Shown one piece after another: positions 11,705-30,229 of a DNA stretch of 64,000 nucleotides. The translations under genes and the position numbers were made by a program. This stretch comes from Planctomycetota bacterium (GTDB taxonomy: Bacteria > Planctomycetota > SZUA-567 > H5-PLA8). The first letter of the stretch is position 1, and every line of letters starts with the position of its first letter. Location of the stretch: assembly GCA_016200135.1 (NCBI GenBank), contig JACQFI010000002.1, forward strand, positions 1 through 64,000, in the 5' to 3' direction. The notes under the pieces were generated by a model that did not search any database, was not told the DNA's origin, and saw nothing but the letters and a program-made list of their open reading frames with translations.

Positions 11705-11740
11705 CGTTTTTCTTCGCCGCTGAGACGCGGAGAATTTCCG

Positions 11741-11820
11741 TTTAGAGTTCATGGTTTGTAGTTTGTGGTTATTTGCTGGCGCGAGCCCATAACCATGAAC
11801 TACGAACCAAGAACTCTAAA
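11741..11820. repeat. Long imperfect intergenic inverted repeat
   Basis: Arms of 32 bp (11741-11772 and 11789-11820) match at 28 positions when one is reverse-complemented, with a 16-base centre. Both arms are built from a short recurring word (GTTCATGGTT, GTAGTT, GTGGTT). It lies between sdhB and the TolB-like gene and could fold as a long hairpin in mRNA. It overlaps a spurious upstream extension of the next gene. Confidence 0.75.
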
Positions 11821-11841
11821 CTGTTTTTGAGGTTCCAGGCC

Positions 11842-13707: not shown

Positions 13708-13911
13708 ATGCCTAATAAAACATCCGAGGTACATCGAATGAAGAAAGCTGGTATTGCCATTCCCACGTCTTTGCGCGAGTTGAAGCAACTGCTCGATGAA
13801 TCGGAAAGTAATCCCAACGGGATTTCACTAGCGGAAGCTTCAAGGACAACTCGAAGAAAGCTTCGAACGAAATTCAAGGCGCGAGGAACTTCTCCCTCTC
13901 ACTCCCAATAA
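13708..13911 (+). CDS. Small basic protein, unknown function
   Basis: A 67-residue basic protein with a good ribosome-binding site (GGGAGGAG about 10 bases upstream). It has a helical centre (SLRELKQLLDESE) and a Lys/Arg-rich end (TTRRKLRTKFKARG). The last 13 bases overlap the 3' end of dapF on the other strand. It follows the small membrane protein gene in the same lower-GC patch, and the two may form one acquired unit. It could be a nucleic-acid-binding or antitoxin-like peptide, but nothing in the sequence proves either. Confidence 0.45.
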   Translation: MPNKTSEVHRMKKAGIAIPTSLRELKQLLDESESNPNGISLAEASRTTRRKLRTKFKARGTSPSHSQ

Positions 13912-14732
13912 TACTCGCCCTTGTACACCGTGCGCACGGCACCTTCGAGGAACGGGCGCGAGCTCGTCTTCTTTGCCTTTTCGGGACTGAAGTGGATCGT
14001 GAGCACGTCGCCGCTCGCCACGTGGACCTTAACGGGCGCGCTGTAGCCGTGCGCAAGGGCCGTGCAGATGGCCGCCGCCGTCGCACCGGTGCCGCAGGCG
14101 AGCGTCTCGTCTTCGACGCCGCGCTCGTACGTGCGCAGCTTGATCGCGTTGCCGCCCAGGAGCTGAACGAAATTCGCGTTCGTGCCCTTGGGCTTGAAGA
14201 CCTCGTGATAGCGGAGCGCCGCGCCGCGCTGCTTCACGTCGACGGCCGCGACGTCTTTCACGAACTGGACCGCGTGCGGCACGCCGGTGTTGATGAAATA
14301 CAGGTCGGCCTTCTCGCCGAGCACGTCCACGCCTTCCTTGAGCTCCATCGAATTCGGCTGCGAGAGCTGGACCTTCGCCGACCGGCCGTCCTCGGCGACT
14401 TCCGCGTGCAGCGTCCCGGCGAGGGTCTCGATGACCTGCTTGAGGCCCGCGCGGCCAAGCTGGTTCGCGAAGACGGCGATGCAGCGCGAGCCGTTCCCGC
14501 ACATCTCGGCCTCGCTGCCGTCGGCATTGACGATGCGCATCTTGTAGTCGTGCCCGGGCGCTTTGGCCTTCTCGAGGAAGATCGCGCCGTCGGCGCCCGC
14601 GGAGACGCGCCGCGCGCTGGCGTGCTTGGTGAGTTTGGGCAAGTCGGCCTCGGAGAACTTCCCGTCCCAGTTATCGACCATCAGGAAGTCGTTGCCGGTG
14701 CCGGACATCTTGACGACTTGAACCAAGCGCAT
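13899..14732 (-). CDS. dapF: Diaminopimelate epimerase
   Basis: A 277-residue enzyme that converts LL- to meso-diaminopimelate, for lysine and peptidoglycan synthesis. The two catalytic cysteines are Cys78 (EMCGNGSRC) and Cys213 (LACGTGATAA). The N-terminal MSGTGNDFLMVD motif and the internal FINTGVPHAV are intact. The start at 14732 is preferred over an in-frame extension because the extension runs back into the intergenic inverted repeat, and GGAG lies upstream of it. Its presence implies the DAP branch of lysine/peptidoglycan synthesis. It is the last of a minus-strand run (LysM gene, GxxExxY gene, dapF). Confidence 0.93.
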   Translation of the reverse strand: MRLVQVVKMSGTGNDFLMVDNWDGKFSEADLPKLTKHASARRVSAGADGAIFLEKAKAPGHDYKMRIVNADGSEAEMCGNGSRCIAVFANQLGRAGLKQVIETLAGTLHAEVAEDGRSAKVQLSQPNSMELKEGVDVLGEKADLYFINTGVPHAVQFVKDVAAVDVKQRGAALRYHEVFKPKGTNANFVQLLGGNAIKLRTYERGVEDETLACGTGATAAAICTALAHGYSAPVKVHVASGDVLTIHFSPEKAKKTSSRPFLEGAVRTVYKGEYYWE

Positions 14733-14760: not shown

Positions 14761-14791
14761 TTTGAACCGCCAAGACGCCAAAGCGCCAAGG
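14761..14791 (+). repeat. Left terminal inverted repeat, 31 bp
   Basis: Built from the word CGCCAAG repeated three times (CCGCCAAGA, CGCCAAAG, CGCCAAGG). Its partner is at 15215-15245, with 30 of 31 positions matching. Confidence 0.85.
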
Positions 14792-14800
14792 ACGAAAAAT

Positions 14801-15208
14801 TCACACTGTTAATACTATTCGATTGATGCCGGTCTTCAAGGTAGGCACGTTGAAGTTGATCAGGAGCGCGAGCTGAAGCCGTGTTGCCTTGAGATAAGAG
14901 AGCACCTGGGCTTTGTGAATGGGAGCGAATTGTTCGACCGTTTTTGCTTCTACGACAAGCCGGCTCTCGAGGAGAAAGTCCAGGTGGCCCGAGCCGACCG
15001 CGGATCCCTTATAGATAATCTCGAATGGGTATTCTCTCTCAAATGAAATCGCTCTCGCGGCGAGTTCCACCGCGAGAGCGTTTCCGTAGACGGATTCGAG
15101 ATAACCCGGGCCCAAGGCTCTGTGCACTTCGATCGCGGCTCCAATGGTCTGATGAGCCAGGCGATTAAGAGCTATATCCGGTTCCCTGCCTAAAAGCCCT
15201 TTCCTCAT
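14801..15208 (-). CDS. GxxExxY family protein (PD-(D/E)XK nuclease-like)
   Basis: A 135-residue protein with the signature G35-Y-L-E38-S-V-Y41 in ALGPGYLESVYGNAL. A PD-(D/E)XK-like core follows: Asp77 (GHLDFLL), then Glu87 and Lys89 (VVEAKTVEQ). The end LINFNVPTLKTGINRIV is typical of the family. Family members are widespread and of unproven role. The core suggests a nuclease fold. The ATG at 15208 is used. Its only ribosome-binding-like bases (AAGG) are the inner end of the right inverted repeat. An in-frame TTG at 15244, inside the repeat, would add MNRQDAKTPRYG. The gene fills the space between the repeats and is co-oriented with its neighbours. Confidence 0.85.
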   Translation of the reverse strand: MRKGLLGREPDIALNRLAHQTIGAAIEVHRALGPGYLESVYGNALAVELAARAISFEREYPFEIIYKGSAVGSGHLDFLLESRLVVEAKTVEQFAPIHKAQVLSYLKATRLQLALLINFNVPTLKTGINRIVLTV

Positions 15209-15214
15209 TCCGTA

Positions 15215-15245
15215 CCTTGGCGTTTTGGCGTCTTGGCGGTTCAAA
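15215..15245 (-). repeat. Right terminal inverted repeat, 31 bp
   Basis: Reverse complement of 14761-14791 with one C/T difference. It overlaps a possible TTG start and supplies the AAGG upstream of the GxxExxY gene's ATG. It ends 2 bp before the LysM gene's stop. Confidence 0.85.
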
Positions 15246-15246
15246 C

Positions 15247-16128
15247 CTATTGCGTGACGGTCGGAATTTTCAAGGTCGCGCCGACGTGCAGCTTCTTCGC
15301 GTCCACGCCGGGGTTGGCGTCGAGGATCTTCTGGATCGTCTTGGGGCCCGCGCTGCCGAGCATTTCTTTTGCGATCGCGGCCAGCGTGTCGCCGCTCTTT
15401 ACGGTGTAGGTCTTGGCCGATCCGGCGGCCGGCGCCGGCGCGGTGCGTTCCGCCACCGCGGGACTGGACTCGGACGAACGCACGGCGGGAATGGCCGCGA
15501 CGCCGGGAATCGCGGGGATCTTGAGCTTCTGGCCGACCTTCAAGTGATTGGCGTCCACGCTGGGGTTCGCGGCCATGATCTTCTTCGCGTACTTGCCGTC
15601 GCCGAAGACCTTGGCCGAGATCTTGTAGGGATTGTCGCCGGCGGCGACCGTGTAGGTCTGGGGTTCCTGCGCGGCTTCGGGCGCGACCGGGGCGCCGTTC
15701 GGCGCCGGCATGTCGCCCGCGTTGGGGCGTTCGTTGGCCACGGGCGCGGGACCGTTGGGTTTCACCATGCCGCCGTTGGCCGCGGGCACATCGACAATCT
15801 CGGCCCCTGGGCCATTCCTGTTTCCGGCCGCCGGGGTGAGATTCGACGGCGCGGGCTGCGGTTGGGCGGCGGGGTTTTGGCTCTCTCGGAAGCGGTCGAG
15901 TTCGTGCTGCTGGATCTGCGTGCCGGCGTCGCGAGGGTTTTCCGCGGCCGCGGGCTGGGCCGCACTTTCGCGCGCGGTATCCGTGGCGGGCTGGTCCGCG
16001 CTGGCGGTCGCGGGTTCGTTGGCATCCAGATCGGCGGCGCGTTTGTGGATGGCGCGCGCGACCAGCAGCGTAATCGAAAGCCCCAACACCAGCACCACCG
16101 CCAACCCGATCCGTGCGTCGCGTTTCAT
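15247..16128 (-). CDS. Membrane-anchored protein with two LysM domains
   Basis: A 293-residue protein. Residues 7-25 are one hydrophobic anchor or signal segment (RIGLAVVLVLGLSITLLVARAI). A long Ala/Pro-rich flexible linker follows. The first LysM domain is at about residues 157-205 (TYTVAAGDNPYKISAKVFGD, ANPSVDANHLKVGQKLKIP) and the second at about 240-290 (TYTVKSGDTLAAIAKEMLGS, ANPGVDAKKLHVGATLKIP). LysM domains bind peptidoglycan or related glycans, so this protein likely sits at the cell wall side of the inner membrane. AGGAG precedes the start at 16128, which is chosen over a much longer in-frame extension without a ribosome-binding site. Confidence 0.88.
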   Translation of the reverse strand: MKRDARIGLAVVLVLGLSITLLVARAIHKRAADLDANEPATASADQPATDTARESAAQPAAAENPRDAGTQIQQHELDRFRESQNPAAQPQPAPSNLTPAAGNRNGPGAEIVDVPAANGGMVKPNGPAPVANERPNAGDMPAPNGAPVAPEAAQEPQTYTVAAGDNPYKISAKVFGDGKYAKKIMAANPSVDANHLKVGQKLKIPAIPGVAAIPAVRSSESSPAVAERTAPAPAAGSAKTYTVKSGDTLAAIAKEMLGSAGPKTIQKILDANPGVDAKKLHVGATLKIPTVTQ

Positions 16129-16363: not shown

Positions 16364-16453
16364 TTGAACCGCCAAGACGCCAAAGCGACAAGAATAGATT
16401 TTAGACGTCTTCGTGTGACTTTCTTGGCGTACTTGGCGCCTTGGCGGCTCAAA
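16364..16453. repeat. Gene-less copy of the CGCCAAG inverted repeat pair
   Basis: The left arm 16364-16394 begins TTGAACCGCCAAGACGCC and the right arm is 16421-16452. They are imperfect reverse complements (one indel, a few substitutions) around a 26-base AT-rich centre. The element lies 23 bp downstream of the stop of the Gfo/Idh gene (minus strand), in the 347-bp gap before the LysM gene. The rest of the gap holds only the LysM gene's upstream region. It looks like a MITE-style or REP-style relative of the element at 14.76-15.25 kb. Confidence 0.75.
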
Positions 16454-30151: not shown

Positions 30152-30229
30152 TTAACCGCCAAGAAGCCAAAGCGCCAAGAACTGCATCCGGCTTAAAGAT
30201 TCGTTTTGCTTGGCGTCTTGGCGGTTCAA
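30152..30229. repeat. Second gene-less copy of the CGCCAAG inverted repeat pair
   Basis: The left arm 30152-30182 reads TTAACCGCCAAGAAGCC and on through CGCCAAGAA. The right arm 30208-30229 is GCTTGGCGTCTTGGCGGTTC plus AA. The right arm lacks one CGCCAAG unit. It lies 31 bp after the stop of the HNH gene (minus strand) and upstream of the coiled-coil gene. It is a relative of the pairs at 14.76-15.25 and 16.36 kb. Confidence 0.75.

Follow-up and report, generated by a model that had tools for sequence, protein, structure and literature searches.

In the REP/RAYT system, a single gene is flanked by inverted palindromes, about 100 solitary copies of which are also found in intergenic DNA; the version of the palindrome tracks the version of the protein, and the segments between repeats are unrelated (PMC2817692). 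The Coxiella 23S intervening sequence is a 428-nt selfish element in which tandem heptamers precede an ORF and which is excised by RNase III (PMC4990558). The locus described here was compared with both. It lies in a window of 64,000 nucleotides, the whole stretch of DNA that was analysed (Planctomycetota bacterium, assembly GCA_016200135.1, contig JACQFI010000002.1, positions 1 to 64,000).

Two inverted arms of 31 nt each (14761-14791 and 15215-15245) are separated by 423 nt and match at 30 of 31 positions (97% complementary). In the orientation of the gene (minus strand), the 5' arm (15215-15245) contains the units CGCCAAGA, CGCCAAAA and CGCCAAGG behind TTTGAAC, and the 3' arm (14761-14791) is its reverse complement with one mismatch. 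Exactly one gene is enclosed, a minus-strand GxxExxY PD-(D/E)XK nuclease-like gene (14801-15244, 147 aa) whose TTG start is located within the 5' arm. An alternative ATG start at 15206-15208 gives an ORF of 14801-15208. The initial annotation, made from the sequence alone, had described near-perfect 31-bp repeats around one GxxExxY gene, and this was confirmed by the arm alignment and by matches to TIGR04256 and PF13366. The tight placement that it reported between minus-strand genes was also found: the stop codon (15247-15249) of the LysM-domain gene (15247-16128, minus strand) is one base off the 5' arm and the start of dapF (13899-14732, minus strand) is 28 bp from the 3' arm. To this must be added that the gene and its two neighbours all run in the same direction. 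The element adjoins these protein genes and is not inserted in 23S rRNA. CGCCAAG was matched 55 times in the window, versus 20 expected.

Like a RAYT gene, the window gene is flanked by inverted palindromes that are also dispersed in high copy. Unlike a RAYT gene, it encodes a PD-(D/E)XK protein and not an HUH/Y1 tyrosine transposase, and arms of this type consist of 2-4 tandem units of 8-10 bp that together make a single long hairpin enclosing the gene. The REP-like logic with a different protein family that had been proposed was thus recovered, the layout following REP/RAYT with an unrelated fold. With S23/IVP elements the locus shares its size (~430-490 bp), a tandem-unit inverted repeat whose loop contains one ORF of ~130 aa, and a position in transcribed DNA. 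However, the S23/IVP product is an unrelated four-helix protein, whereas the window gene matched only TIGR04256 and PF13366, and the known S23/IVP cases are located in 23S rRNA and excised by RNase III, which was not seen for the window element. MITEs derived from a DDE-transposase parent also have short inverted-repeat units and both gene-bearing and gene-less forms, but the window element has no DDE transposase, no target-site duplication was found in comparisons with distant relatives and the gene-less loops are mostly unrelated.

In the same phylum, 14 of 26 S23/IVP genes (TIGR02436; L311-L340) were enclosed by tandem-unit inverted repeats, with units mainly 7 bp apart, in agreement with the published Coxiella 23S intervening sequence (PMC4990558). 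The S23/IVP loci with ~7-bp units look like a second gene-in-hairpin class. The window also contains a 41-bp, near-perfect palindrome of another repeat family (11740-11821; ~7-bp units GTTTAGA GTTCATG GTTTGTA...; fold z-score -9.3), in the style of the arms around S23/IVP genes elsewhere.

The window protein scored 134.6 bits against TIGR04256 (cut-off 35) and 129.8 bits against PF13366 (PDDEXK_3; cut-off 22). Its E, D, ExK and Q...Y residues are intact, a motif typical of the Cas4/RecB/lambda-exonuclease branch of PD-(D/E)XK enzymes. The AlphaFold model (mean pLDDT 91.5) has an alpha-beta core fold, and its top PDB matches in Foldseek were Cas4 SSO0001 and lambda exonuclease, with modest E-values (~3e-3). 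A sequence search of the PDB returned no relative. On residues and predicted fold the protein meets the criteria for the PD-(D/E)XK superfamily, its nuclease activity being inferred; the PD-(D/E)XK-like core first read from the translation is supported by the intact E-D-ExK-Q..Y residues and by a confidently modelled Cas4/lambda-exonuclease-like fold. Cas4 and lambda exonuclease share the E..D..ExK plus Q...Y residues and the overall fold, but the protein studied here is much smaller (~120-residue domain) and is encoded outside any CRISPR or recombination operon, and no conserved iron-sulphur cysteines were seen in the GxxExxY alignment. A known anti-phage defence gene was ruled out, no PADLOC model matching at E 0.01. 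Phage carriage was also rejected: tblastn gave no match among phages, and eight plasmid matches.

The arms are dispersed over the 6.1-Mb source genome, with 85 near-identical matches. A degenerate two-unit pattern detected 98 genome sites, versus 1 with the reversed control. The arms are thus not private to the gene. The family has ~100 copies, mostly gene-less hairpins of ~80 bp, and most sampled copies were convergent arm pairs around a loop of ~30 nt. Arms are conserved among the gene-less copies, whereas most loops resemble neither one another nor the gene. Two hairpins on different contigs share their loop as well, with unrelated flanks, and such sharing at unrelated sites is direct evidence that hairpins are copied. 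Two gene-less hairpins of the family lie in the window, at 16364-16452 (loop ~26 nt; DNA fold z-score -6.4) and 30154-30226 (DNA fold z-score -4.5), and both fold strongly as single strands. The first is missing between LysM and Gfo/Idh in one relative (G003), and the second from the orthologous position in each of G001, G003 and G004. In G001, the LysM-Gfo gap is not intact, and the repeat that comes after this Gfo/Idh gene is a different one, CGCGGAG.

A set of 167 usable GxxExxY loci was assembled from relatives and from named genomes, covering over a dozen phyla and archaea. In the named genomes, 80 loci were collected (from Chloroflexota, Planctomycetota, Verrucomicrobiota, Acidobacteriota, Bacteroidota, Cyanobacteriota, Pseudomonadota and two archaea, among others). 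An inverted repeat was called at a score of at least 15 across the gene. Control windows from the same DNA at the same locus were used as the null; pairing arms across loci was unsuitable because the shared motif contaminates it. An inverted repeat was found around 121 of the 167 loci (72%), versus 8 of 835 control windows (1%). The named-genome set alone gave 47/67, versus 4/474 controls. Element size is compact, at a median of 491 bp, and a median of 10 bp separates the stop codon from the 3' arm. Arms are almost always 2-4 tandem CRCNRA(G/T/A) units (CACAGAG, CACGGAG, CGCCAAG, CGCAGAT and CACGAAT, for example) spaced 8-10 bp, with 8-9 bp in the G class and 9-10 bp in the T class.

The initial annotation had guessed that the repeat-gene link could be general, and it held at these 121 loci. 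Neither outcome that would have refuted it was met, as most loci do have the repeats and vertical inheritance alone does not account for the presence of the element. Its proposed check for CGCCAAG inverted repeats succeeded for the flanking repeats and failed for the motif itself: CGCCAAG is only one version and was discarded as a universal repeat, the unit class CRCNRA(G/T/A) being what generalises. Proteins beginning MNRQDAK, the translation of the repeat, were described there as frequent. This is a minority pattern, with an in-frame start codon within the arm in 32 of 121 flanked genes, and a start codon in the arm was therefore dropped as a defining trait. At one locus (G197:C35:13154-15358), CGCCAAG inverted arms 2.2 kb apart surround a GxxExxY gene and extra DNA, possibly an element with cargo.

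Catalytic residues were intact in 162 of the 167 proteins. An inverted repeat was present at 127/162 loci with intact residues versus 1/5 with broken ones (p = 0.011); about a quarter of the intact genes have no clear inverted repeat. Degenerate paralogues without catalytic residues and without flanking repeats were observed at L057, L080, L081 and L082, and are possibly domesticated. Where dS was unsaturated, the dN/dS of orthologues was 0.05-0.17. As judged from these sequence comparisons, the orthologues are under purifying selection, and the low ratios imply that the protein has a function of benefit to itself or to the host.

Protein subtype and unit class are matched. Proteins ending LKxGIxR have G-class arms (62 vs 1) and the others mostly T-class arms (28 vs 7; p = 7e-17). 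The regular expression defining the subtype was revised once after inspection, and both versions gave the same result. On the protein tree, unit class requires 11 changes versus 32 after shuffling (0/200). Both classes coexist in the source genome (G000): the arms consist of CGCCAAG units around the window gene and of CACGAAT units around a second gene, located between hslV and hslU. Co-inheritance of gene and arms alone could yield this match, and only 1-3 independent subtype switches are testable; evidence in trans is for this reason important. It was sought in 246 genomes of the phylum, without correction for phylogeny, with a cut-off of 6 sites that we chose and with E-type proteins assigned by a bit-score cut. 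Genomes with at least 6 AG-type (G-class) sites had a GxxExxY gene in 47/55 cases versus 64/191 of the rest (p = 4e-12). E-type proteins accompany expanded AT-type (T-class) repeats (27/45 vs 5/66, p = 3e-9) and showed no association with AG-type repeats (p = 0.17). An intact E-type gene accompanies 15 T-class sites in G000, against 1 such site in its congener G001, where that gene contains an in-frame stop; this fits a link in trans but is an anecdote. No gene was detected in five repeat-rich genomes (G037, G066, G078, G099 and G104), perhaps through MAG incompleteness or the presence of another enzyme.

The window element was found only in G000. The empty-site comparison proposed in the initial annotation showed the LysM-dapF gap without it in three relatives, G001 (dapF 86% identical), G003 and G004. 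The second element splits hslV-hslU in G000 and G001, and the gap is ~40 bp in G004 and G006. A single stop-to-start gap in another genus is occupied by a full element in G145 and G174, by same-class nested hairpins without the gene in G076 and, in three more species, by hairpins of an unrelated class (AAACCGTTT units). The hairpins at L343, L344 and L346, in the gap where relatives carry a GxxExxY element, belong to this third class and have 9-bp AAACCGTTT-like units. Distinct elements recur in the trpE-trpG, MoxR-DUF58 and aspartase-hydF gaps of different hosts (names from translations). Different GxxExxY elements were seen at trpE-trpG in proteobacteria (L188, L202, L203 and L226, with only the trpE side visible in L202 and L203). 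The trpE-trpG gap, which belongs to an essential biosynthetic operon, is possibly a hot spot of insertion, and reoccupation of the same gaps by different classes may reflect hot spots, a shortage of permissive sites or replacement in place. Elements occupy operon gaps: of those flanked by inverted repeats in same-direction gaps, 61/69 are co-directional with their neighbours (approximate gene calls). No target-site duplication was seen at the orthologous gaps, in relatives too distant for base-level boundaries, and no strain-level empty site was found for the element. There is usually one gene copy per repeat version, and within-genome copying of the gene-bearing form was not seen. Mobility of the element is strongly suggested and not demonstrated.

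The explanation that we favour, with somewhat better than even confidence, is a minimal gene-in-hairpin element whose nuclease partners the gene-less hairpins; recognition, cutting and mobilisation are inferred. By analogy, it is best read as a putative PD-(D/E)XK counterpart of REP/RAYT that is built like the S23/IVP intervening sequences. The GxxExxY protein would recognise the units of its own arms, the C-terminal segment after the NF motif being a candidate specificity loop, and would cut the hairpin or cruciform form. Cutting might let the element and the gene-less hairpins copy to new intergenic sites or convert in place. The system would work as RAYT does with REPs, a Cas4/lambda-exonuclease-like enzyme replacing the HUH transposase.

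Homing and RNA-level processing stay live rivals. In the former, which we hold to be unlikely, the nuclease would cut gene-less hairpins of its own class and the gene-bearing version would be copied by arm-homology repair, without free transposition. The position of the gene, which fills precisely the loop of a hairpin that is normal in other respects, its single copy among ~100 gene-less hairpins, the conserved nuclease residues and the recurrence of different elements at the same gaps all suit homing. Many hairpins should then hold the gene, but gene copies are rare, each with a different repeat version, and repeat-rich genomes are gene-poor (525 sites and 2 genes in G071).

Processing of RNA in the S23/IVP manner is less probable again. 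The arms would pair in the transcript and RNase III or the GxxExxY protein would cut the stem, so that insertion in an operon is tolerable and harmless processing is selected. In its favour are the co-directional placement in operons (61/69) and the insertions in hslVU and trpE-trpG. The layout matches that of the Coxiella intervening sequence (PMC4990558), which is 428 nt long, has tandem heptamers ahead of its ORF and is excised by RNase III, and S23/IVP genes also have tandem-unit arms. However, the nuclease resembles DNA exonucleases and Cas4, and an Rfam search of the window gave no match to a known RNA family. In addition, gene-less hairpins lie between genes of any orientation (4 each for ++, --, +- and -+, from rough ORF calls), and a shared transcript is not required. 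Estimates of the overlap of hairpins with ORFs are unreliable, since this G+C-rich DNA contains many long spurious ORFs.

The least probable of the three is a nuclease useful to the host and repeatedly captured in hairpins that are moved by another enzyme, with the repeats acting as terminators or RNA stabilisers. Such a passenger would explain purifying selection that persists without an inverted repeat (none was found at L289/L294, where dN/dS is still 0.08), repeat-rich genomes without the gene, and the single stop-to-start gap that holds hairpins of different families in different species; it predicts neither the correspondence, both in cis and in trans, between protein subtype and unit class nor the inverted repeats around most GxxExxY genes in many phyla. 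A chance or gene-private inverted repeat was ruled out by the control windows, only ~1% of which had a repeat of such strength, and by the genome-wide arm matches.

Beyond the gene-in-hairpin element at this locus, a wider proposal is made tentatively, at slightly less than even confidence: an undescribed class of mobile elements in much of the prokaryotic world, in which a PD-(D/E)XK nuclease with a changeable C-terminal segment moves or converts hairpins of the tandem units that it recognises, giving genome-wide palindromes without a DDE, HUH, serine or tyrosine transposase. In the searchable literature, GxxExxY was mentioned in two papers only, and incidentally, and no link to repeats was described; a search for six repeat strings found none. 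Subscription papers and preprints were not covered, and the novelty of the gene-repeat link is therefore provisional.

GxxExxY is a common family of unknown function, and palindromes of the CCACAGAG, CGCCAAG and CGCAGAT types are common unexplained repeats. A widespread bacterial repeat family probably has its partner in the GxxExxY protein, and the tie gives each a testable role. It offers a nuclease-to-repeat specificity code and suggests a second, unrelated enzyme solution for maintaining REP-like palindromes. The S23/IVP parallel hints that small genes housed in hairpins may form a broader class.
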